Source: Planctomycetota bacterium
GTDB taxonomy: Bacteria; Planctomycetota; UBA8108; UBA1146
Assembly (NCBI GenBank): GCA_013911165.1
Contig: JACETR010000010.1
Location: 1-54,142 of the forward strand
Length of the DNA: 54,142 nt
Reading direction: 5' to 3'
Position 1 is the stretch's first letter. Each line of letters starts with the position of its first letter. The position numbers and the translations under genes are program-made. Positions 38,113 to 54,142 of the stretch are shown piece after piece. The notes under the pieces were generated by a model, which was not told the origin of the DNA, searched no databases, and saw nothing but the letters and a program-made list of their open reading frames with translations.

Positions 38113-41100
38113 CTACAGTCCGTCCGGTGTGGGATCGGTCCCTGGGCTCGGGAAAGGCTCTGCAGGCGGGGTTCCGCCATCGAAGAGCCAACTGGCCAAC
38201 TGGACTGCGTCTCCGATATGCACTGCTCCGTTATCATCGATATCCGCACTGTCGAGAATGACGGGTGCAGAACCGGAACCTGCGACGTAGGCAGCGATCA
38301 AGGCCACATCCGCGATGTTGACGAGGCCGTCGCAAGTCACATCACCGCGGAGGAAAACACCATCGTTGAAGTAGTTGAAACCACCCGGGAAAACAGCGAT
38401 CTCAGTGCCCACGGCATCCAGGAATCGCAGATCGACGAGACCGGTGGTCGACGACGCCGGGATTCTGACGGTAGCCATGGTGCCATCCGGAGAGACCTGA
38501 ACGAGACTCGAAGCCAGATCACCAAAGACGACCTGAAGGCCTTCTGGAATACCGACACCATTGACCAGCATCGTCGTAGGACTACAGATCGATCCTTCAT
38601 TCGGAGTGTAGCTGTCGATGGTGGAAACGTAGTAGGTAAATGCTTGCGCGAGGGTCGCCTGTCCGTAATCGGTCAACACCGTCACGTCCACACTGCCCTC
38701 TGAACCTGCAGGAGCATTGACCACCAGTGTTCCTGGGTCGATCAGCACCACTTCCGAAGCTGGATTCGGGCCGAAGAAGACATTCGATCCAGGAGCGAAT
38801 CCGGTTCCATTGAGGATCACTTCAGTCCCTCCCACTGCCGGTCCTGACGTCGGTGAAATCGACAACAGGGTTGGCGGCTCGGGCTGAGAGAGGACCTGGA
38901 ATTCTGCAGGGAAAAGAACCGGCTCAATCGTTGAAGCCACCGAGTCGACGAAAAGGTTTTCGATCTCGACTCCGTCGGTGTCATAAATACCAAAGTTGAT
39001 GGTTGTACTGTCGCCGACCTGTGCATCCGCTGAGACGAGGAATCGGAAGTAACCCAACTCTGCCTGGGGATTGGCGGGAATGGCATCGAAGGTGGAAATC
39101 ACCGATCCATAGGCCTTTCCTGAGAGGGGGTCGATTCCGGAGAAGAACAATCCAAAGGTTCCGCTGAGATCCTCACCCACCGTACCCACATTGCTGACTT
39201 CCAAACAGGTCAGAACAGAGGGGTCGTAGTCGAGCACAACAGAATATCCGGTCAGTGCCTGGCTCCAGACACCTCTGGCCCAGACCACGATCTCTTCACC
39301 GGGGGTCAGGCTGGCATTGTCGATGAAGAGGGCATTTCCGGAGACGGTCACCCCCCCATCTTCGAGGGCGGGAGATTGTGTACCGGAAGCAGTTCCCAAA
39401 GATCCATCGACAAGGTGGAAAAGAACCGGCCCCAAAAGATCAAAGTCCGGTTCCAGATTCCCTGTCACTCTGGCGAGGAGAGAATCTGCACCGACTGGAG
39501 CATTCCCGGAAATTACCTCGACTGTCAGACGGCGAAGCCCGGCAAAGGTCCCCAGTGGATTGTCCGTTATCAGGAGATCGGCAGTTGCCACTCCTGGAAC
39601 ATCGACCGCAACCTCTTCAAGAACGTTGCCATCGTAGTCGATCTGGAAAATCCAGCTGTTGGCTTCCGTCAAAAGTTGCCCAAGGATATCGATCTCAAAA
39701 TCACGACCCACGACCACAGAGGTTGGGTCGTAGTAGATTCTTTCAGAGATGTTGACTTCACATTGGCCAGAGGGAGCGGAGTAACTGACACCGTCACGGA
39801 AGAAGTACCCAACGACACGATAGGCCCAGGTACCACCACCCACAGGATCACTGTAAGAGGTCGCTGTTCCAGACAGATTGATGAAATCGGTTCCCTGAGG
39901 ACCCGTTCGCTCGAGAACCACCTCGTCATAGGAGAAGGACTCTGGACCATTGGTCCACGAAATTTCGATGGCTGCTCCCGTGGCCTGACAACTCAGGTTT
40001 GTGGGAGTGGCAAGAGGAATGTTGACTTCACCCGCTTCGATCAGGGAACTCAGTCCCCCGTCGCCAAGAGCCTGAATGGCATAGTTGACCGGCCCCGGCA
40101 GCAAATCGAAGACTTCGTATTCGATTTCCAGACCACCCAATGTGGCAACCTGAAGACCACTCTCAAAGACACGAATCTCGTCGTAGTACTCTTCATTGGT
40201 CCAGGTCAATCGCAGGTTGTCATTCCCGTTGAGAGTCGCCTGGAGGTCGGTCGGGTTTGCAGTCCCTGCCCCACCGGCATCCTCAACCAGACAGGTTGCA
40301 CCTGCAGATGTGACTCCGCCCTGGACAGCACGAACCTCGTAGAGGTGAGACTGGAGACCGGCATTGTCGACGTAGTTGAGCTGAACCGCAGGAAGTTCGA
40401 TCAGGAACCCGCCATCACGGAAAACCTGCCAAGCGGAGGTTCCCGGAAGCGAAACCCAGTTCAACTGAATAGTGTTCAGATTGGTTTGAACACGCTCACA
40501 GTTAAGGTTGGTCGTAGGGATGATGACTGCATTACAGGTTGTTTCCGCTGAAGGAACTCCCGCAACAAATCCGGTGACACTGTAATTCAGTGAACCCTGA
40601 CCGGGACTGGTATCGACGTATTGGGTGTTGGTTCCAGACATGGAAGCAAGGAATGCACCACCCCGACGAATCTCGATTCCACCCTGCAGGTCGTATCCCA
40701 CCGGGTTACTCCAGGTCAGCAGAACTTCTGCCTGACCAGAGGAAGACGAGATTTCGCACTGCAGCGATTCCGGAGCTGCTGTGGCAGAGTTGATGAGAAC
40801 AACACCCTGTGCTGAAGAAATATCAGCAGAGAGCAAAGCACCACTGCTGGACAAAGTTCCCTGATTGGACCAGGTGGTACCCTGAATACTCAACCCGTCA
40901 GCCAGCAGGAATGAAGCCTCGCCCAACTCACTGGGAACCGTTTGCATTTGCACGCGGGCAATCGGAACCTCAGTTCCTGCCGGAATGAATCCATTGATCT
41001 GCAGTGTCGCAGCGATCAATCCGTTGGCGGTATCGATGCTGGTCACAACATCGGCACTTCCAAATGGGAAAGTGGCCGAATCGGCGATCATCCCGGTCGC

Positions 41101-43524: not shown

Positions 43525-44829
43525 TCAGGGGCAGTATGAAGTCGCCTCGCACTCGGCGCCTTCAATCGTTCCGCAGTCCGGCCACGGTGCACTCGGAGCG
43601 GGACCGCTCAGCAGACGGTAGCTGATCACGAAAATCGCGTCGGCTGCGTCCATGAGTGAATCATCATTGGCGTCACAAGCGACGAGACAGGTTCCGGTCG
43701 GACCTCCCTGGAAGAGATCATTCAGAATCCAGATTCCGTCGGCAATGTCGACAGTGTCATCGCCATTGCAGTTACCGCGAATGAAGGGAACGTCGGGCGG
43801 AGCGTACTGAGGGAACAGGCTGACACTTCCGTTGGTCAGCTCAGCCTCAATCGAACCACCACCGACGACGACCACGTTGGCCACCGGAGGACTGCCAAGG
43901 CTGTCAGTCCAGGTAAGGGCAGTGTCGGTCGGATCCAGCAGTCCAGCGAGCGCAGAAGCGACAGAACTGTAACCGGCACTGAGAACGGCAGTCTCAGTCT
44001 CGAATGCGAGAGTATTCGCACCGGTAAAACTGTAAACCACCCCGATGGTCCAGCCATTGGCCAGAAGATTGACACCCGCGAAGTCCGGATCGAATCCAAG
44101 ATCAGAGTTCCAGTCGACGGAATCGATGGTCAGCAGCGAATCATCGTGCTGGAGACCCATCGAGAACCCCTGAGTCGAACTCGGGAATCCCGGGTTATCC
44201 GGATTTTCAGTAATACTCGGGCTGGCGGTGAAGGAAACCTCACCAGAGTTGCCGTCGTAATCGACGTCGTAATCACCTGCACCGTAGGCAAACGGAGGAG
44301 GACCGGCGACAAGCTCGACGGTTCCACCCGTGGTATCAGGTGTAATGGAAGCACCACCGACAACGACGATCGTTTCAACAGTCGGGCTGCCCAAAGTGTT
44401 GCAGAAGTCGACGTTGGTCGAGGTGCCAGGAGCACCGATCAGGTCGTAGGAAGCAACGTTGAGCTCGGCTCCGGTGGTTCCGGCGGCGAGATTGGCACAA
44501 CCGGTGAAGCAGATCACAACACCGACAGTGAATCCCTCAGCGGCATCCACGTTGACCTGGTTGAAGTCCGGCGGAGAGCCGTTCTTGACGACCTCGGTGG
44601 TCGATCCGTCGACCACTGCAGTCAGGGACAGAGCAGAACCATCGTGGCAGACACCGTAGGACCAGCCCTGAATGTCGTCGCCATTGTTGTCGAGCGACAC
44701 CTGAAGATCAAGAGAAGCACCGGGAGCGCCCGAGCCACTGGAGATCGACATTTGGTAGCTCTGCCCGAGTGCCGGGACGCTCAGCAGGAGCGCGAAGGCA
44801 AAGGGAAGAAGAAACTTAAAGGATTTCAT
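43525..44829 (-). CDS. Secreted cohesin-like module protein (N + M modules) with C-terminal dockerin-like domain
   Basis: Signal MKSFKFLLPFAFALLLSVPALGQ; GVVICFTGCA...FCNTLGSP; QGFSMGLQHD...GWTIGVVYSFTGA; FIRGNCNGDDTVDIADGIWILNDLF...CDANDDSLMDAADAIFVISYRLL. Confidence 0.85.
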   Translation of the reverse strand: MKSFKFLLPFAFALLLSVPALGQSYQMSISSGSGAPGASLDLQVSLDNNGDDIQGWSYGVCHDGSALSLTAVVDGSTTEVVKNGSPPDFNQVNVDAAEGFTVGVVICFTGCANLAAGTTGAELNVASYDLIGAPGTSTNVDFCNTLGSPTVETIVVVGGASITPDTTGGTVELVAGPPPFAYGAGDYDVDYDGNSGEVSFTASPSITENPDNPGFPSSTQGFSMGLQHDDSLLTIDSVDWNSDLGFDPDFAGVNLLANGWTIGVVYSFTGANTLAFETETAVLSAGYSSVASALAGLLDPTDTALTWTDSLGSPPVANVVVVGGGSIEAELTNGSVSLFPQYAPPDVPFIRGNCNGDDTVDIADGIWILNDLFQGGPTGTCLVACDANDDSLMDAADAIFVISYRLLSGPAPSAPWPDCGTIEGAECEATSYCP

Positions 44830-44889
44830 TTTATTACTCTGCTTTCTTACAAAAAGCGGTTTTCGATTTCTGGGTTCCTGAACAGTCCG

Positions 44890-46728
44890 TTAGTTACACG
44901 CAGCCGGAAGAGCACAATCAAGGGCGTCTTCAGACGGGTCTACACCCGAGCTGTAAGGACCCGGATCCGGCGTCGGATTTCCGAAACTGAAAAGGAAGTT
45001 CAGCAGGTAAACAGAGTCAGCAAGGTTGATGATTCCGTCGTCGTTGGAGTCACAGGCGTCGAGGCAAAGAGCGTCGTATCCCTGGAACTCGGTGGCGATG
45101 ACCGTGGCAGCGTCAGCAAGGTCGACCTTGGTGTCGGTGTTGCAGTCACCACGAAGGAATGCGGGAACCGGAATGATCTCGTAGTCAGCACCGATCAGAG
45201 TGAAGTTCTGAATCGACTGGTACTCGATCACAGCCATGTTGTTGATCTCGACCATGCCGTTACCGTTGATTCCGTCGCAGAAATCGATGCTGAAGGAGTC
45301 ACCACAAATGGCTCCACCGTCAACTTCGGCGTCCACACAGGCAATCAACAGCGGCTCGGAAGTAGTCGGAAGCTGCTGGTTCTCGAAGGGCGGCAGGGCG
45401 TCCATGAGAATACCGGCGACCAACTCGCGGCCGTCGCCGTCATTGTCGTCATTGTCGATCTGGTAGTGAACAAACTCGGCACCCAGTTCGTCGGCGATGG
45501 ATCCCTCGATGCTGAAGGTTCCGTCAACGAGCAGCAGGTCGTCATAGCAGACGGCCAACTGCACACCCTGAATGTTGTCGGTCGGGTCACTGTAGAAGAA
45601 GCAGAACTCGATCTCCTGGCCGGGGAATCCGCTGCCACCATTGGTGCCTGTCTCCGGGAAATCACGCTGACCAATGTAGAAAGCGGTATCGAAGACCGGA
45701 GGAGGAGGAGTCGGATTGATGCTCATGGTGCCATCCTCAAGCGAAGGGCTGAGGGAGATACCGGCGACCACGATCACGTTGTCCAGAGTCGGGCTGCCAA
45801 GCTGACCGTTGACGAAGGTCAGAGCAGTCTGAACCGGAGCATCGGGCTCAACAAGATCGATCTGTGAAGCGTAAACGTAAGAAGCAATGTGGTTGTCATT
45901 GCCAGCGGCAATGGTCTGTCCTTCGAACGGAGTCTCAAAATCGAGAACCACGCCGAGGGTACCACCGTTGGAGTAAAGCTCCTCAACCACCAGCTCAGCG
46001 CCGGCGGACTGGGAAGCAGCTCCCAGAGTAATATCGACCAAGCTCAAAAGAGCGGGGTCATGGGTGATGGAAAGAACAAATCCCTGGGCATCTCCACTGG
46101 AGTTGGAGAGAAGCACACGGGCAGGTCCACTTCCGTCAGCGTTAATGCTGCTATCTTCAATCCTCATGCTGTCAGGCGGAGGAGGAAGCAGGGTCAGGAG
46201 ACCGTCGTTGAGCTCCAGGCCGGTGGAAGCGTCCACACTCTGACCACCCTGAACGATCAGGTTGGAAAGAGGAGGATTGTTCAACACACCGTCGGAGAAA
46301 CCGATAGCGGAATCCGTGGCTGCGCCCACGAGGGCAAGGGGGGTCATGGTGAATGCCGCAATCTCAAGCCCGGCACCGGCAGGAATCTCCTGGCCGTCGA
46401 AGGGAGCAGTGGCGTCCACAACAACTCCGAGGGTGAATCCACCACTCAGGGTTTCGGGAACGACCAACTCCGCATTCGCGGAAAGAGTGGCAGATCCGGC
46501 CTCGACGTCACTGACGGACAGCAAGCTGTCATCATAAGTGATCGCAAGAACGAATCCCTGAACACCCGAATCGGAATCCATAAGGACAGACAGGGTCTCA
46601 GGTGCCAAACCCGCAGTTTCACCACTGGAAATGGTGAGTGCGTTTTGGGCAAACGATTGGGAACCAATAACGGTGAATAACACCGCAAACAGTGCGCTGT
46701 AGAGGCGCGGGAGACTGCGTTTCATCAC
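44890..46728 (-). CDS. Secreted cohesin-like module protein (second module class) with C-terminal dockerin-like domain
   Basis: Signal MMKRSLPRLYSALFAVLFTVIGSQSFAQ; repeated (D)xxGxxQGFVLxITxDxxLLSxxDxxxGxAxxSAxAELVV...PFxGQxI modules; FLRGDCNTDTKVDLADAATVIATEF...ACDSNDDGIINLADSVYLLNFLF. Confidence 0.85.
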   Translation of the reverse strand: MMKRSLPRLYSALFAVLFTVIGSQSFAQNALTISSGETAGLAPETLSVLMDSDSGVQGFVLAITYDDSLLSVSDVEAGSATLSANAELVVPETLSGGFTLGVVVDATAPFDGQEIPAGAGLEIAAFTMTPLALVGAATDSAIGFSDGVLNNPPLSNLIVQGGQSVDASTGLELNDGLLTLLPPPPDSMRIEDSSINADGSGPARVLLSNSSGDAQGFVLSITHDPALLSLVDITLGAASQSAGAELVVEELYSNGGTLGVVLDFETPFEGQTIAAGNDNHIASYVYASQIDLVEPDAPVQTALTFVNGQLGSPTLDNVIVVAGISLSPSLEDGTMSINPTPPPPVFDTAFYIGQRDFPETGTNGGSGFPGQEIEFCFFYSDPTDNIQGVQLAVCYDDLLLVDGTFSIEGSIADELGAEFVHYQIDNDDNDGDGRELVAGILMDALPPFENQQLPTTSEPLLIACVDAEVDGGAICGDSFSIDFCDGINGNGMVEINNMAVIEYQSIQNFTLIGADYEIIPVPAFLRGDCNTDTKVDLADAATVIATEFQGYDALCLDACDSNDDGIINLADSVYLLNFLFSFGNPTPDPGPYSSGVDPSEDALDCALPAACN

Positions 46729-47261
46729 TACTCTCCTCGTCTCGAAGGGACACTTCGGAGCTTCTTTGAGGACCGACGAGCCTTACAACTCTTCGACCCG
46801 CGCGGAGGGACTCCGAACAGGGGGAAAAAATTACAAAGTTGAAACAATCCGGAAACAGGCAGGCCTGGAACTCGGGGGAGACCAGGTCACATGATCCCGG
46901 GGGACGATTGACTGAATGTCGTGCAAGAAGAGGAATGTGCAGGAAGGGATGATCCTGCGGTTTGGAATCCGAAGACTCCTGTGCTGGTGCTTCAAAGTTA
47001 CAGATCGTTGCCGAAACTGTCTACGGCGATTCTGTGACTGCCCATGAAAGTGGAATCAACACCGCCACTCCATGGCATGCAAAGATCGCAATCTGCCCCC
47101 CACTCTCGGCAGCGATTGCCGAATCTCGGAATCGGTTGCCGATTTCAACTGGCGATCCATACCTCAACCGGGAATCGTCACCCCAAAAGAGAACCTGAGC
47201 CCTCTCTGAAGTGCGATTTCTCACCGGGATATTTTTCCGGAATGGATTTATTCAAAACAAA

Positions 47262-47300
47262 AAAACAGGCTCGGAACCCTGGGGATTCCGAGCCTGTTTT
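47262..47300 (-). terminator. Rho-independent terminator
   Basis: AAAACAGGCTCGGAA-CCCTGGGGA-TTCCGAGCCTGTTTT; T-rich on the minus strand. Confidence 0.85.
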
Positions 47301-47345
47301 GATCATGTGGTTCGATTCGGCCACTCTAGAGGCCTCATCGTGTGA

Positions 47346-49142
47346 TCAGGGGCAGTAAGAGGTTGCTTCACAATCTGCACCACCAACCGCTCCACAATCC
47401 GGGAACGGAGCAGTGGGCATCGGTCCGTCAAGAAGGCGGTAGCTGATGATGAAGACAGCGTCTCCGGCATCGTACTTGGCATCCTCATTGGCGTCACAAG
47501 CAGCAACACAGGTTCCGGAAGGGCCCTGAAGGAAAAGCTCATTCAGAATCCAGATTCCGTCTGCGATGTTGACCTTGTTGTCACCATTGCAGTTACCGCG
47601 AACGAACGGAATGTCGAAAACGGGCTGAAGGCTAATGGTTCCGTCGACCAGATTCGGCTCGACTGAGGCGCCATTGACCACGACGACGTTGTCGACGGGA
47701 GGACTTCCCAAAGTACTGGTCCAGGCAAGGGAAGTATCAATGGAATCGGTTCCGGTGAGCGCTCCGGCAACGGTGGAGTAATCCACAGAAACCACGTCCA
47801 GCTCGGAATCGAAGGCGAGGGTGTTTCCACCGGTGAAGCTGTATACGACACCGATCGTCCAGCCGTCGGCAAAAATTCCACCCTCGGCGAAGTCCGCGTC
47901 GAAGGGCAGAGTTGCAGTCACAGCGGTCGGCTCGATGACGGCACTGTCATTACCCATACCCATGGAGAAACCCTGACTCGGGTTCGGGAAATCTGCGCCG
48001 AGTGCACTGTTGTCAACTTCAGCAATGCTGAAGGCAGTACTGAAGGAGGCTGAGCCGGTGTTGCCGTCGTAGTTTACGGACTGGCTCGGAGCTGTGAAGT
48101 TAAACTCGGGGCCAGGAACGGAGAAGGGCTCCAGAGTAATGGTGCCATCCTCGAGAGACGGCGCAATGGAGGCTCCTGCCACCACGATCACATTCTCGAC
48201 CGGAGGCGATCCGAGCGCGTTGCTCCATGCAAGGGAGGTCACCACATTGTCGGTCGACCCGATCAGGCCTCCGGCAACAGTGTCGTAATCGACACTGACG
48301 ACGTCGGTCGGAGCGTCAAACGCAAGGGTGTTGGCACCGGTAAAGCTGTAGACGACCCCAATGGTCCAGCCGTCTGCAAGAATGTTCGACTCGGCGAAAT
48401 CAGCATCGAAGGGCAGCGTCTCGGTGACCGTCAATGCCGTGAGGAGAGAAGAATCATTCGAGAGACCCATGGAGAAACCCTGGGTCGGATTCGGGAACGG
48501 GGCACCCTGAGCGGAGTTATCCGTCTCGGAAACGGCAATAACTGCGGTGAAAGAGCCAATACCGGTATTTCCGTCAAAGGTCACCGCTTCAGTTGGAGCA
48601 GTGTAAACGTACTCTGGCCCGGGAACTCCCACCACTTCGATAGCGCCGGAGTTCTGGGTCGGGGCAACGGAGGCTCCATTGACCACGATGACGGTCTCTA
48701 CCGGCGGAGCACCGAGGGTGTTGCAGAAATCGACGGTCGTCGAACCTTCAGCCACACCATTGTAATCCACAGCCAGTAACTCAAATCCACTGACATCTCC
48801 CACGGAGGCACAACCGGTGAAGCAGATCACCACACCCTGGGTCGCTCCCTCAGGAAAGAGGTTGATCTGGTTGAAATCGGGAGCACCACCATTTTTGGAG
48901 GTCTCGGTACCGGAACCACTGTTGGCTGCAATCGCCTCGAGGAAAGCGGTGTCGTTGCAGATACCCAAAGACCACCCGGCGATCACATTGCCAGTGTTAT
49001 CCATGGTCAGAGAAACGGTGCCACTGCCACCCAATGCGATATCACCGCTTCCTGCGATGAAACTGGTGTCCTGTGCACCCGCATTTGCGGAAGCAAAGCC
49101 GACCACCAGGGCCAGCAGGAAAATTGAAAAAGTGCGCTTCAT
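47346..49142 (-). CDS. Secreted cohesin-like module protein (N + M + M modules) with C-terminal dockerin-like domain
   Basis: Signal MKRTFSIFLLALVVGFASANAGAQ; two tandem about 166-169-aa modules beginning VPGPEYVYTAPTEAV and VPGPEFNFTAPSQSV; FVRGNCNGDNKVNIADGIWILNELF...CDANEDAKYDAGDAVFIISYRLL. Confidence 0.87.
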   Translation of the reverse strand: MKRTFSIFLLALVVGFASANAGAQDTSFIAGSGDIALGGSGTVSLTMDNTGNVIAGWSLGICNDTAFLEAIAANSGSGTETSKNGGAPDFNQINLFPEGATQGVVICFTGCASVGDVSGFELLAVDYNGVAEGSTTVDFCNTLGAPPVETVIVVNGASVAPTQNSGAIEVVGVPGPEYVYTAPTEAVTFDGNTGIGSFTAVIAVSETDNSAQGAPFPNPTQGFSMGLSNDSSLLTALTVTETLPFDADFAESNILADGWTIGVVYSFTGANTLAFDAPTDVVSVDYDTVAGGLIGSTDNVVTSLAWSNALGSPPVENVIVVAGASIAPSLEDGTITLEPFSVPGPEFNFTAPSQSVNYDGNTGSASFSTAFSIAEVDNSALGADFPNPSQGFSMGMGNDSAVIEPTAVTATLPFDADFAEGGIFADGWTIGVVYSFTGGNTLAFDSELDVVSVDYSTVAGALTGTDSIDTSLAWTSTLGSPPVDNVVVVNGASVEPNLVDGTISLQPVFDIPFVRGNCNGDNKVNIADGIWILNELFLQGPSGTCVAACDANEDAKYDAGDAVFIISYRLLDGPMPTAPFPDCGAVGGADCEATSYCP

Positions 49143-49556
49143 TTTACACCTCTCACGCCGTCCCCCCCCCGGGGGAATAAATCAGGGTCTGATAATCATC
49201 AAGAACTGACAGATCCACCGGGGATTTGCCTGCCTTGGGTCTTGTTTGGATGAATCCGGGGAATGGGCAATCTCCCCGACTCTAGAATGCCTCTCCGGAA
49301 GAAATTTCCGGGTCGCACACTGTCCTCATAGTAAGGCCCCCATCACCCCGGATCACCCCCGTTTATGCAGAAATTCGGCTCAGAAGCGATCTTTCGATTT
49401 TCCCGTCAGGGCTGAACTTCACCGCCGCGAGGACTGCTTTACGGCTATCCGTCACAACACCTTTCCATTACTTATTTTAGGTGTCATGAGCCGGAGTGAT
49501 TCGGTCACTCGTGGAATCGTACTATTGAGACAAGTATTGAGGAGTAGGCATAAAAA

Positions 49557-49592
49557 TTCCTCCCCGGGGATTCTGGAATCCCCGGGGAGGAA
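49557..49592 (-). terminator. Rho-independent terminator
   Basis: TTCCTCCCCGGGGATT-CTGG-AATCCCCGGGGAGGAA; T-run on minus strand from TAAAAA at 49551. Confidence 0.85.
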
Positions 49593-49630
49593 CCGATCAA
49601 ACCCTGCCGGAAGTGCAGGGTCCCATCTTC

Positions 49631-51424
49631 TTACAGACAGGAACTGTTACCACAGTCCTCAGGAGTCTGTCCGTCCACCTGACCGCAGTCGGGGTAAGGA
49701 GCTGTCGGAGCAGACCCACCCATGAAGCGATACATGATGATGTAGGAGGTGTCCGCAAGGTCACCGAGGCCGTCATTGTTGGCGTCGGTGGCGATGGGAC
49801 AGGTGGTTGCCGGACCATTGAGGAACAGCTCGTAAATGATCCAGATGGCATCTGCGATGTTGACGATGCTGTCACCATTCACATCTCCGCGAATGAAGTC
49901 CACGGTGATCACCGGATTCAGGGCGATGGAGCCGTTTTCGAAGTTGGCGGCAAAAGAGCCTCCATCCACGACCACGACGTTGGCGACGGCGGGAGAACCA
50001 AGGTTGTCACTCCAGGTCAGATCCACGGTGGTACCGGTCTCGTCTCCGGCCATGCTGCCATTGGTGGAGTAATCCACAGAGACGACCTCGGTCGAGTTCT
50101 CAAAGGTCAGAGTGGCTCCGCCAGTGAAGCTGTAGACCACACCCAGAGTCCAGCCAGAGCCATCCAGATTGCTCTCTGCAAAATCCGCAGCGAATCCAAG
50201 GGACACGTTGACAGCGGAAGCTTCCACTTCAGGTCCGTTGGCAAGCCCCATGGAGAACCCCTGGGTAACACTTGGGAATGCAGCTCCGGCGGCACTGTTG
50301 TCCACCTCCGAGATGTTGATCCCCACACTCACGGAGGAGTTGCCGTCAGCAGGATTGTAGTTACCCGTCACGTTGCCTGCGGAGTAGGTGAACTCCGGAT
50401 CGGGAACAAACAGAGGCTCGAGGGTGATGGTTCCATCGACAAAGTTGGGAACCAGAGATCCCCCATTGACCACTGCGACGTTGGCAACCGGCGGAGAACC
50501 GAGAGTATCAACGAAAGTCAGGGAAGTGACGGTGGCATCCGCATTTCCGGCGAGTGCGCCGGAAACGGTGTCGTAATCGACACTGATCACGTCGACAGCG
50601 CTGTCGAATGCGAGAACCGTACCACCCGTGAACGAGTAGACCACTCCAGCGGTTACACCGTCGGCGAAAACAGAAGATTCAGCAAAGTCTGCGGAGAAAG
50701 GCAGAGTAATGTTGATTGCTGTTGGTGAAAGAAGCGCCGGGTCATTCCCCAATCCCATGGAGAATCCCTGGGTGTCATTCGGGAACGGAGCACCGAGCGA
50801 GCTGTTGTCGACTTCAGCAATACTTGCAGTAGCCGTAAAGTTGCCGCTGCCACTGTCGCCATTGTAGGAAACAGTCTGATCGGCAGTAGCGTAGGTGAAC
50901 TCAGGATCGGGAACCCCGACCACGTCGACAGCACCAGAGTTCTGCGTCGGAGCAAGAGATGCTCCATTGACCACGATGACGGTCTCCACTGCAGGAGAGC
51001 CAAGGGTGTTACAGAAATCGATCGTCGTCGATCCTTCAGCCACACCATCGTAGTCAATGGTGAGCATTTCAAAAGCAGACACATCGCCCACAGTTGCGCA
51101 GCCGGTGAAGCAGATCACCACTCCCTGAGTTGCTCCTTCGGCAAAAACACTGATCTGATTAAAATCAGGAGCAGAACCGTTTTTGGAAGTCTCGGTATCC
51201 GCACCACTGTTCGCGGCTGTGGTGGTAAGGAAAGCGGTGTCATTGCAAATACCCAAAGACCAACCGGCAATCACATTGCCCGTGTTGTCCATGGTCAAAG
51301 CAAGAGTTCCACTTCCACCTTCAGGAATCGTCCCACTTCCAGCATTGAAACTAGTGTCCTGCGCATTGACATTCCCCGAAAAAACGAAAGCCAGCACGAG
51401 AGCACACCAAATTGAATTCTTCAT
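49631..51424 (-). CDS. Secreted cohesin-like module protein (N + M + M modules) with C-terminal dockerin-like domain
   Basis: Signal MKNSIWCALVLAFVFSGNVNAQ; same module layout; FIRGDVNGDSIVNIADAIWIIYELFLNGPATTC...DANNDGLGDLADTSYIIMYRF. ORF opens at 51442; MKNS at 51424 preferred. Confidence 0.86.
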   Translation of the reverse strand: MKNSIWCALVLAFVFSGNVNAQDTSFNAGSGTIPEGGSGTLALTMDNTGNVIAGWSLGICNDTAFLTTTAANSGADTETSKNGSAPDFNQISVFAEGATQGVVICFTGCATVGDVSAFEMLTIDYDGVAEGSTTIDFCNTLGSPAVETVIVVNGASLAPTQNSGAVDVVGVPDPEFTYATADQTVSYNGDSGSGNFTATASIAEVDNSSLGAPFPNDTQGFSMGLGNDPALLSPTAINITLPFSADFAESSVFADGVTAGVVYSFTGGTVLAFDSAVDVISVDYDTVSGALAGNADATVTSLTFVDTLGSPPVANVAVVNGGSLVPNFVDGTITLEPLFVPDPEFTYSAGNVTGNYNPADGNSSVSVGINISEVDNSAAGAAFPSVTQGFSMGLANGPEVEASAVNVSLGFAADFAESNLDGSGWTLGVVYSFTGGATLTFENSTEVVSVDYSTNGSMAGDETGTTVDLTWSDNLGSPAVANVVVVDGGSFAANFENGSIALNPVITVDFIRGDVNGDSIVNIADAIWIIYELFLNGPATTCPIATDANNDGLGDLADTSYIIMYRFMGGSAPTAPYPDCGQVDGQTPEDCGNSSCL

Positions 51425-51450
51425 CCTCTTCACCTCCTCCATCCCTATGT

Positions 51451-51490
51451 AAAAAAAATCGGTGCGATGAATAAAGTCACCGCACCGATA
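51451..51490 (-). terminator. Putative terminator hairpin
   Basis: ATCGGTGCG ... CGCACCGAT inverted repeat with eight A on the plus strand (T-run on minus). Confidence 0.6.
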
Positions 51491-51568
51491 TTACTCGAAC
51501 GTCAGAGGTCAAAATAGAGAGAAAGGTCTCTGCACCCCTCCTCAGCCAGTATTTTCGTAACTACTGTC

Positions 51569-53266
51569 CTAGAAGGCTCCTGCGTCGATCCAAGACCCAA
51601 TCAGCTCGATGGTTGCTTCGTCCATGCACGAGTTTGAGTTTTCGCAGAATCGCGGCATTCTTCTACCGCAACCATCCGGAGATCCATCCCCGTCGGTATC
51701 CGGACAACAACCCATGTCCAGGACGTCAGGATCGAGATGAGACCCCTGAATCTTTCGGTACAACCAGCTTCCATTACGGTCGCCAGGGTTCACGAGATTC
51801 ATGGTATCGCATTGTCCTGCGGGCATGCCGACGATGTTGTCGTAGGCATCCTCCGTCAACTGCAATCCAAAGGAAGGGCCATTCCCCTGAGCGCCACCCG
51901 GAGCATGACAGGGAACACAGGAAGAGGTCAGGATCGGCTGAATGTCGGCCACGAAAGTGGCTGGGGCTGATCCCCCACCGTCTGCACAGCCGGAGGAAAC
52001 ACAGTCTTCCGGAGTCTGATCCACCACCTGGCCACAGTCGGGGAAGGGTGCAGAGGGCATCATTCCATTCATGAAGCGATACATGAAGATGAAGGATGCA
52101 TCCGCAATATCTGCGAGGCCATCCGCATTGGCATCGCTGGCCAGAGTACAAGTGCTGGCCGGTCCATTCAGGAACAGCTCGTAAATGATCCAGACACCAT
52201 CGGCGATGTTCACCTTGGCGTCTGCATTCGCATCTCCACGAATGAAGTCCAGAGTCACCACCGGATTCAGGGCGATAGCCCCATCCTCAAACGCCGCATT
52301 GAGAGAAGCACCACCGACGACCATGACATTGGCTACCGGGGGCGAACCCAGATCGTCGCTCCAGGTCAGGGTCGCTGTGGCTCCGGTTTCATTTCCGGCC
52401 ATGCTTCCAGCCGTCTCGTAATCAACAGAGATCACTTCTGTTGCATTTTCGAAATTGGCAGTCACCCCTCCAGTGAAGCTGTAGACCACTCCTGCAGTCC
52501 AGCCATCCGCGAAGAGGCCGATTTCACCGAAATCCGGATCAAAACCCAGATCAAGAGTGACATTGGTCGGAGAGACTTCAGCACTATTGGCGAGTCCCAT
52601 CGAAAAACCCTGAGTCGCATTGGGGAACGGAGCCCCAAGGCCAGAGTTGTCGGTCTCGGCAATGGAGATGCCCACTGTGGCACTGGCATTGCCATCTGCG
52701 GGGTTGTAACTGGCCGCAACAGAACCTGCGGAGTAGGTGTACTCAGGATCGGGAACCCCAACCACATCCAGTGTGCCGGCATTTTGCGTCGGAGCCAGAG
52801 AAGCCCCATTGACGACGATCACGGTATCGACCGGCGGTGCTCCAAGAGTGTTACAGAATGCGATAGAAGTCTGACCTTCTGCCACACCCTGATAGTCGAC
52901 AGTCATCATCTCGAAACCTGAGACGTCTGTCACCACCGCACAACCCGTAAAGCAGAGAACCACTCCCTGGGTTGCACCTTCCGGGAAGACACCAATTTGG
53001 TTGAAATCCGGAGCAGAGCCATTTTTTGCGGTCTCCGTGTCCGCACCACTGTTGGCAGCACTCACCGTAGCCACTGCAGGATCGTTACAAACCCCGAGAG
53101 ACCAGCCAGCGATCTCCTGACCAGTGTTGTCCATAGTCATGGACAGGGTCCCGGTACCGCCCTCGGGTGCGGTTCCACTCGCTGCATTAAAACTGGCATC
53201 CTGTGCAATGGAAACTCCACCATGGGAGAACAGCAGTGTCAGGACGAGACACATTCTAAATAACAT
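51569..53266 (-). CDS. Secreted cohesin-like module protein (N + M) with dockerin-like domain and C-terminal CxxCH (planctomycete cytochrome c-like) domain
   Basis: FIRGDANADAKVNIADGVWIIYELF...DANADGLADIADASFIFMYRF followed by FVADIQPILTSSCVPCHAPGGAQGNGPSFGLQLTEDAYDNIVG...NLVNPGDRNGSWLYRKIQG. Confidence 0.86.
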   Translation of the reverse strand: MLFRMCLVLTLLFSHGGVSIAQDASFNAASGTAPEGGTGTLSMTMDNTGQEIAGWSLGVCNDPAVATVSAANSGADTETAKNGSAPDFNQIGVFPEGATQGVVLCFTGCAVVTDVSGFEMMTVDYQGVAEGQTSIAFCNTLGAPPVDTVIVVNGASLAPTQNAGTLDVVGVPDPEYTYSAGSVAASYNPADGNASATVGISIAETDNSGLGAPFPNATQGFSMGLANSAEVSPTNVTLDLGFDPDFGEIGLFADGWTAGVVYSFTGGVTANFENATEVISVDYETAGSMAGNETGATATLTWSDDLGSPPVANVMVVGGASLNAAFEDGAIALNPVVTLDFIRGDANADAKVNIADGVWIIYELFLNGPASTCTLASDANADGLADIADASFIFMYRFMNGMMPSAPFPDCGQVVDQTPEDCVSSGCADGGGSAPATFVADIQPILTSSCVPCHAPGGAQGNGPSFGLQLTEDAYDNIVGMPAGQCDTMNLVNPGDRNGSWLYRKIQGSHLDPDVLDMGCCPDTDGDGSPDGCGRRMPRFCENSNSCMDEATIELIGSWIDAGAF

Positions 53267-53530
53267 CTTCAGTCACTCCTCAACTTGAATAGTCACCCCG
53301 GCTCATACAAATCCGGGAAATCAAAATACGAACTACAAGATTTAACTCTGAAATACCCAGAAAACTTGCGGAAACTGTCGAAAATACTCTGTGACGAAGA
53401 CACCACGCAAACCCTGGTGAGTCATGCCACTGGGTTTATTTTACTCATGATTCAATATGGAAACCATGTCCACCAAGTGACTTTTAATCCGTTTATGAAA
53501 TGTGCATGAAAACCGTTTCAGGCCCCAAAT

Positions 53531-53572
53531 AAAAAGAATCCCCCGGAAGGATGACCTTCCGGGGGAATCTTC
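53531..53572 (-). terminator. Putative terminator hairpin for the right-edge gene
   Basis: TCCCCCGGAAGG-ATGA-CCTTCCGGGGGA with AAAAA upstream on plus strand (T-run on minus). Confidence 0.75.
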
Positions 53573-53596
53573 GATAGATCTCAAACCATCCGAGCT

Positions 53597-54142
53597 TTAG
53601 CAGCCGGTGTCGTCGCTATCACAACTTGGAAGCCCGTCGTCTGTCGGGTCAACACCATCGTTGAACGGACCCGGAGCTGTCGGGATCGGACCAAACTTGA
53701 AGAGCCAGTTCAGCAAGTAGACAGAATCTGCCATGTTCAGCAGGCCGTCATCATTGGTGTCACAGGCATCGGGGCAAAGAATGGCAAATCCGTTGAACTG
53801 ATTGGCAAGGATCGTGGCAGAGTCTGCCAGGTCAACCTTGTCGTCGCTGTTGCAGTCTCCACGCTGGAAGATCTCTTCAGGAACCACGTAAACAGAACCA
53901 TCGTTGCGGGCATAGCTCTGGATCGAGTTGAAGTTGATAACAGCGTTGTTGTAGAGGTTCACGGTACCGGTACCGTTGATGTCGTTACACCACTCGATGA
54001 GAAGATCAGTCTCACAGGGAGCATTGGCCCCCACGGTGATCGGCAGGCACCCGATCAACAAACGTCCCTCATTGAGGTCCGCAGTTTGCGGAAGGGTCTG
54101 ACCGTCGAAGGGCGGCAAAGCATCCAGAAGGATTGCGACCAC
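53597..54142 (-). CDS. C-terminal part of a cohesin-like/dockerin-like secreted paralog (second class), truncated by the window edge
   Basis: VAILLDALPPFDGQTLP...IEWCNDINGTGTVNLYNNAVINFNSIQSY parallels 44890-46728 (MDALPPFENQQLP...IDFCDGINGNGMVEINNMAVIEYQSIQNF); FQRGDCNSDDKVDLADSATILANQF...CDTNDDGLLNMADSVYLLNWLF. Confidence 0.87.
   Translation of the reverse strand: MVAILLDALPPFDGQTLPQTADLNEGRLLIGCLPITVGANAPCETDLLIEWCNDINGTGTVNLYNNAVINFNSIQSYARNDGSVYVVPEEIFQRGDCNSDDKVDLADSATILANQFNGFAILCPDACDTNDDGLLNMADSVYLLNWLFKFGPIPTAPGPFNDGVDPTDDGLPSCDSDDTGC

Follow-up and report, generated by a model that had tools for sequence, protein, structure and literature searches.

The question raised by this locus is why a row of neighbouring proteins, each with a dockerin-like domain, should carry a pair of cysteines at or near the stop codon. 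The locus lies on contig JACETR010000010.1 (assembly GCA_013911165.1) of a Planctomycetota bacterium. The window analysed here is the whole of that contig, 54,142 nucleotides, so the contig end truncates the 53597 gene on its 5' side. The C-termini listed in the initial annotation were all present in the translations: CEATSYCP in 43525, CALPAACN in 44890, CEATSYCP in 47346, CGNSSCL in 49631 and CDSDDTGC in 53597, each followed by the stop. As it had reported, the cysteine pair is terminal in five of the six array proteins and internal in 51569, where a CxxCH cytochrome-like domain comes after the motif, and a PDCG motif lies upstream of the pair in four proteins (43525, 47346, 49631 and 51569). 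A disulfide clip, a cross-linking site and a sorting or anchoring signal had been offered as explanations. The analysis reported here makes an intradomain disulfide staple the most likely reading of the tail, at a probability of roughly 0.8.

The tail across the host genome

The host genome (2.70 Mb, 107 contigs, 88% complete) was searched with the dockerin and tail of 43525 as the query. This gave 118 matches, all of which were retrieved, and a subsequent profile search gave 110 distinct dockerin-like domains, 102 of them terminal in their protein and 8 internal. The genome-wide pattern check called for by the initial annotation was run as C-x(3,8)-C-x(0,2)-stop and matched 75 of the 102 terminal dockerin-like proteins, compared to 6 of 157 non-dockerin open reading frames (ORFs) of at least 300 residues from the same genome, an excess well above what chance would give. 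The last cysteine is at the stop or one residue from it in 82 of the 102, and 54 of them end in CP. The tail is a genome-wide rule and not an oddity of this array; far from being absent from the other dockerins of the genome, it was found in most of the terminal copies. The architecture of 51569 is not unique either, as seven further dockerins of the host genome are internal. Seven of the 8 internal copies carry more than 100 residues past the motif, and there are 20 internal copies in related genomes.

The consensus of domain and tail together is F-x-R-G-D-(C1)-N-x-D-G-x(5)-D ... C2-x-x-A-(C3)-D-x-N-D-D-G-x(5)-D ... L-F-x-G-G-x(2)-P-x-x-P-x-P-x-C4-G-x-D-P-T-x-D-x-L-x-C5-x(4,6)-C6-P. The tail adds 20-30 residues and can be summarised as P-x-P-x-x-C4-G-x-D-P-T-x-D-x-L-x-C5-x(n)-C6. 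C1 is position 2 of calcium loop 1, C2 lies in the linker before loop 2 and C3 just before calcium loop 2, while C4 is part of PDCG, C5 belongs to the LxC of the tail and C6 is the last cysteine. Their frequency among the 110 domains is very uneven (C2 108, C5 105, C6 87, C4 80, C1 24, C3 24). A second dockerin subfamily (L129, L130, L136, L148, L160), near QxPGDxNQDGxL ... LPC ... C...GCP..C, has a tail with differently spaced cysteines.

Paired gain and loss of cysteines

Among the 110 host-genome domains, the presence of C4 and C6 was strongly correlated (phi 0.79, p 1.6e-15), as was that of C1 and C3 (phi 0.89, p 1e-18). C2 and C5 gave a phi of 0.62, and the remaining pairs were at or below 0.26. 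The same result was obtained with a pooled set of 241 non-redundant domains (less than about 85% identity) from the host genome and 80 loci of related genomes, the latter searched with the consensus sequence. In this set C4-C6 had a phi of 0.78 (p 5e-29; 185 domains with both, 38 with neither, 18 discordant) and C1-C3 a phi of 0.83 (p 5e-31; 37 with both, 192 with neither, 12 discordant). C2-C5, with few variants, gave 0.42, and all remaining pairs were at or below 0.34. An even count of scored cysteines was found in 89.6% of the 241 domains versus 56.4% (standard deviation 3.0) after column shuffling. The calcium-loop columns 5/7/9/16 and 38/40/42/49 hold D or N in most of these domains, with Asp retained at D16 in 241/241, at D38 in 237/241 and at D49 in 240/241.

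Because kinship alone could yield such correlations, a matched-pair test was used in which each domain without a given cysteine was set beside its closest match among the domains that carry it (median body identity 0.54-0.59). For C4 and C6, 37 pairs showed a change in the same direction and none in opposite directions; for C1 and C3 the counts were 34 and 0. Unrelated columns were evenly balanced, apart from a tendency of C5 to accompany C4. The changes are also recurrent, with 27-41 parsimony changes for each of C1, C3, C4 and C6. Loss of C4 accompanies a tail that ends soon after C5, for example PNPGVDPTPDTLPCS followed by the stop. In 38113 and in L191, a locus outside the window's class, the tail is free of cysteines and C2, C4, C5 and C6 are jointly absent. 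The large 38113 lipoprotein had been described as lacking the tail; it does lack the tail cysteines, but it keeps a cysteine-free version, PFPSPGTDPTPDGL, which stops at the point where C5 would come next.

The simplest reading of the paired loss of C4-C6 and C1-C3 is that the domain holds three intradomain disulfides, C1-C3, C2-C5 and C4-C6. The C2-C5 bond is proposed mainly by elimination and with lower confidence than the staple as a whole. The host genome also encodes a 477-residue VKOR-DsbA fusion with CGLC and CSNC motifs (contig C40, L179:1100-2533, minus strand), on a contig that carries dockerin genes as well. This fusion is a likely disulfide-forming enzyme and makes disulfide formation outside the cytoplasm plausible. 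The suggestion of a disulfide clip thus gains backing from the paired cysteine loss, from this enzyme and from the ordered predicted tail described below.

Several points weigh against the staple. The disulfide bonds themselves we infer from patterns of cysteine presence, and C2 is lost in just 3 of the 241 domains, so the C2-C5 pair rests on few events. The 64-column tree has few well-supported branches and the supported independent pairs were too few, which left a tree test powerless; the case for paired change is carried by the matched-pair test. The C4-C6 rule is broken by 18 domains. Some of these are alignment misassignments of a lone tail cysteine, but they include a small subfamily with C5 and C6 and no C4 (44890, 53597, L029, L039, L173), which is the main unexplained exception to pairing. 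In addition, 13 of the 241 domains have an extra cysteine in calcium loop 2 (column 39), mostly with no clear partner, and over whole proteins of the host genome even cysteine counts outnumber odd ones only weakly (35 to 21, p 0.08). The idea that an odd number of upstream cysteines balances the C4-less dockerins was considered; it fits 44890 (10 cysteines in total) and not L039 (13), and was dropped as a general rule.

The column-39 cysteine is the second residue of calcium loop 2 (DCNDDG) and was seen in L157, L159, L099, L116, L128, L176, L035, L050, L054, L060, L081, L083 and L088. In L176 and L054 it is accompanied by a cysteine at column 4 (FxRC); the other eleven are without an obvious partner.

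The unmatched tail cysteines of the C4-less subfamily would suit a different proposal, that tail cysteines form intermolecular disulfides which cross-link dockerin proteins to cohesins or to each other in a covalent extracellular assembly. Such assemblies are plausible given that the array proteins hold both cohesin-fold domains and dockerins. However, C4/C6 and C1/C3 are lost jointly within single domains, repeatedly, which free cross-linking cysteines would not need. This makes the cross-link an unlikely explanation, and for the usual form of the tail the cross-linking site put forward earlier does not agree with pairs that vary as closed units inside one domain. For the C4-less subfamily, and perhaps the domains with an extra loop-2 cysteine, it can be imagined that the unmatched cysteine covalently locks the dockerin to a neighbouring domain or a cohesin. 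This is very unlikely, though if true it would be a natural covalently locked cohesin-dockerin assembly.

The conservation of several Cys and Asp residues in the tail (CGxDPTxDxLxC) could also point to a site where the cysteines and nearby acidic residues bind a metal or cofactor instead of forming disulfides. However, the cysteines are gained and lost two by two, C4-C6 without a change in C2-C5 and C1-C3 separately, and this fits bonds between two residues better than a site with many ligands. Signal peptides are also predicted for the proteins, and the VKOR-DsbA oxidase is encoded in the genome. A metal or cofactor site is scarcely credible on these grounds, and the disulfide staple is the reading followed below.

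Structure and relation to known dockerins

The 47346 domain, modelled by AlphaFold2 with 98 relatives, had a mean predicted local distance difference test score (pLDDT) of 93.3. The predicted tail is ordered and has no regular secondary structure, with mean scores of 96, 85 and 79 over its blocks. The 31 best PDB matches of this model in Foldseek were all dockerins, over about 55-70 alignment columns, with probabilities up to 1.00 and E-values of 1.6e-3 or weaker. A sequence profile, built on a 12-sequence alignment in which one row was wrong by one residue, matched PDB dockerins over approximately columns 1-60 only. Neither search found a PDB dockerin that covers the tail. Against PF00404 the window's seven proteins reach 11-21.8 bits, compared to a gathering cut-off of 22.9, and eight other places in the host genome pass that cut-off. 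Pfam and NCBIfam gave no model for the tail, and NCBIfam names none of the array proteins.

The two calcium loop-helix repeats are common to these domains and the type I dockerins of PF00404 (among them the cellulosomal Doc48S and Ruminococcus flavefaciens ScaB dockerins), to which the domains described here add C4, C5 and C6 in the tail and C1, C2 and C3 in the body. A clasp in which terminal residues join both ends of the dockerin and stabilise the domain is described for R. flavefaciens ScaA and for Clostridium thermocellum Doc48S (Tyr5-Pro66), and in the literature found it is a non-covalent stacking of an aromatic and a proline ring (PMC4728124, PMC5864761, both citing Slutzki 2013). The domains here resemble this in that the first residue is aromatic in 217/241 and Pro67 is conserved in 225/241. 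They differ in that disulfides would close the domain, and would do so further along a longer tail. The initial annotation had named an ordinary intradomain disulfide shared with known dockerins as the outcome that would make the tail unexceptional. The proposed bonds do look intradomain, but they are not shared with known dockerins: no PDB dockerin was found that covers the tail, and the cysteines are absent from all dockerins sampled in other planctomycete classes. The open-access literature searched, on disulfide-bearing or C-terminally extended dockerins and on dockerin tails in planctomycetes, yielded no description of this tail. The most fitting label for it is a known domain in a disulfide-clasped form.

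The proposed sequence of events is as follows. A dockerin with two calcium-binding loop-helix repeats would be made as part of an exported protein, and after export a disulfide-forming system would close up to three bonds, C1-C3, C2-C5 and C4-C6. The C2-C5 bond would pin the tail onto the dockerin body and C4-C6 would turn the end of the tail into a loop. Such a staple would do covalently what the N-to-C clasp of cellulosomal dockerins does through non-covalent contacts. Its probable role is to make so small a domain more stable once exported and to keep it ready to bind cohesin-like domains, a role that is held with lower confidence than the staple, and the binding of cohesins is likewise presumed.

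Putative cohesin-like partners and the proposed planctosome

The repeats that precede the dockerins offer putative partners. The first repeat of 49631 has a predicted cohesin beta-sandwich fold (AlphaFold2 pLDDT 97.7), and among the 50 Foldseek matches listed all were cohesins or cohesin-bearing chains, the best with an E-value of 6e-9. The non-cellulosomal cohesin of Archaeoglobus fulgidus (PDB 2xdh) was among the top fold matches, although it is archaeal and only about 15% identical. Related domains occur at 47 places in the host genome, and in related genomes a dockerin is also present in 25 of the 29 ORFs that have one. A PKD-repeat protein on contig C23 (L177:5514-8909, minus strand) has a cohesin-like domain at its end and no dockerin beyond it; it is a candidate receptor or anchor for dockerin proteins.

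A Pfam scan of up to 416 residues upstream of 100 host-genome dockerins gave 51 families, including HYR, P_proprotein, LTD, cohesin, FG-GAP, haem peroxidase and beta-helix families. In a cellulosome, dockerins sit mainly on glycoside hydrolases and a scaffoldin is present; here no glycoside hydrolase family was among the 25 commonest of the 51. A "planctosome" has been proposed for Nemodlikiaceae (Phycisphaerae), a non-cellulosomal cohesin-dockerin system with LTD, proprotein convertase P, HYR and cohesin domains; the portion of that account consulted describes an LTD and P-domain anchor, an HYR adaptor with cohesin and dockerin, and dockerin-bearing peptidases, and makes no mention of a cysteine tail (PMC6461901). 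LTD, P, HYR and cohesin domains recur on the dockerin proteins here as well. Unlike the planctosome, the present system apparently belongs to another class and has about 110 dockerins in one 2.7 Mb genome. Since the array repeats have a predicted cohesin fold, the system is probably a disulfide-clasped variant of a cohesin-dockerin system that resembles the proposed planctosome.

The density of dockerins in this genome is very high and the domains are spread over many contigs. Their carriers include haem peroxidases and FG-GAP, HYR, P-domain and beta-helix proteins.

Distribution of the tail

A search of 294 genomes of the phylum used a strict DNA pattern for the tail, C4-G-x-D-P-[T/S]-x-D-x-[L/F/P/S]-x-C5. 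The pattern was found in 21/21 genomes of the window's class (members of its own genus, family, order and class), with 3 to 58 matches each, and in 1/273 other genomes of the phylum, with a single match. A reversed control pattern gave zero matches in the 294 genomes. The dockerins sampled from other classes of the phylum included none with tail cysteines, most of them ending a few residues past helix 2, and L191 has the single similar cysteine-free tail outside the class. A PF00404 search of one four-genome class gave no match. Outside the phylum the pattern is sporadic: it was seen in one WOR-3 bin and in 2/47 genomes from the phylum to which an Eisenbacteria bin belongs, occurrences that binning error or transfer might explain. 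Within the phylum, the tail is a mark of the window's class.

Two sets of records, "Bacillota MAG 7" (L097, L146, L154, L155) and "Proteobacteria DEBay" (L102, L122, L168), were rejected as occurrences in other phyla. Their match coordinates are the same as those of same-family genomes in the phylum search (G213, G177), and the phylum given for them is apparently wrong, as they look like planctomycete bins that belong to the window's own family.

Confinement to one class, together with a terminal position in 102/110 host-genome domains and a last cysteine that is usually the last or next-to-last residue, often as CP before the stop, is what would be expected of a signal at the C-terminus for sorting, secretion or anchoring, one that is recognised and might be cleaved, as with LPXTG, PEP-CTERM or the type IX C-terminal domain. 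However, this is highly improbable. The tail is internal in 8/110 host-genome copies and in the 20 related-genome copies, cysteine-free forms exist, and the tail cysteines covary with each other and with those of the body. The tails also have no hydrophobic (transmembrane) segment and no basic cluster. The earlier proposal of a sorting or anchoring signal is therefore not supported.

Features of the array

The domains and tails of the window proteins, with the first cohesin-like domains, are given in Table 1. The 43525 and 47346 domains have the full set of six cysteines, which in 43525 are domain residues 6, 33, 37, 71, 79 and 85. In 49631 C2, C4, C5 and C6 are present and C1 and C3 are both absent, and C1 and C3 are jointly absent in 51569 as well. 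C4 is missing in 44890 (PYSSG), where C5 and C6 are present, and in 53597 (PFNDG). The CxxCH domain of 51569 had no Pfam match at E <= 0.01.

Table 1. Coordinates of dockerin-like, cohesin-like and cytochrome-like features in the window
Feature	Position	Strand	Remarks
43525 (P0001) dockerin-like domain and tail	43528..43785	-	tail 43528-43605
44890 (P0002) dockerin-like domain and tail	44893..45159	-	tail 44893-44982
47346 (P0003) dockerin-like domain and tail	47349..47606	-	tail 47349-47426; AlphaFold2 pLDDT 93.3
49631 (P0004) dockerin-like domain and tail	49634..49897	-	tail 49634-49717
51569 (P0005) internal dockerin-like domain and tail	51986..52246	-	tail 51986-52066
51569 linker and CxxCH cytochrome-like domain, after the tail	51572..51985	-	
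53597 (P0006) dockerin-like domain and tail	53600..53869	-	tail 53600-53692
38113 lipoprotein (P0007) dockerin-like domain, cysteine-free tail	38116..38355	-	tail 38116-38175
43525 first cohesin-like domain	44308..44748	-	
47346 first cohesin-like domain	48627..49073	-	
49631 first cohesin-like domain	50915..51361	-	AlphaFold2 and Foldseek
51569 first cohesin-like domain	52757..53203	-	

Implications

Dockerins are small calcium-dependent domains that serve as molecular connectors in nature and in biotechnology. A class that apparently staples about 100 dockerins per genome with disulfides provides a template from nature for building more rugged connectors. It is tempting to take the motif for a new sorting signal, a view that the present analysis does not support. 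The tail can also serve to recognise the class by sequence, and it offers a way into the role of the poorly studied non-cellulosomal cohesin-dockerin systems in planctomycetes.

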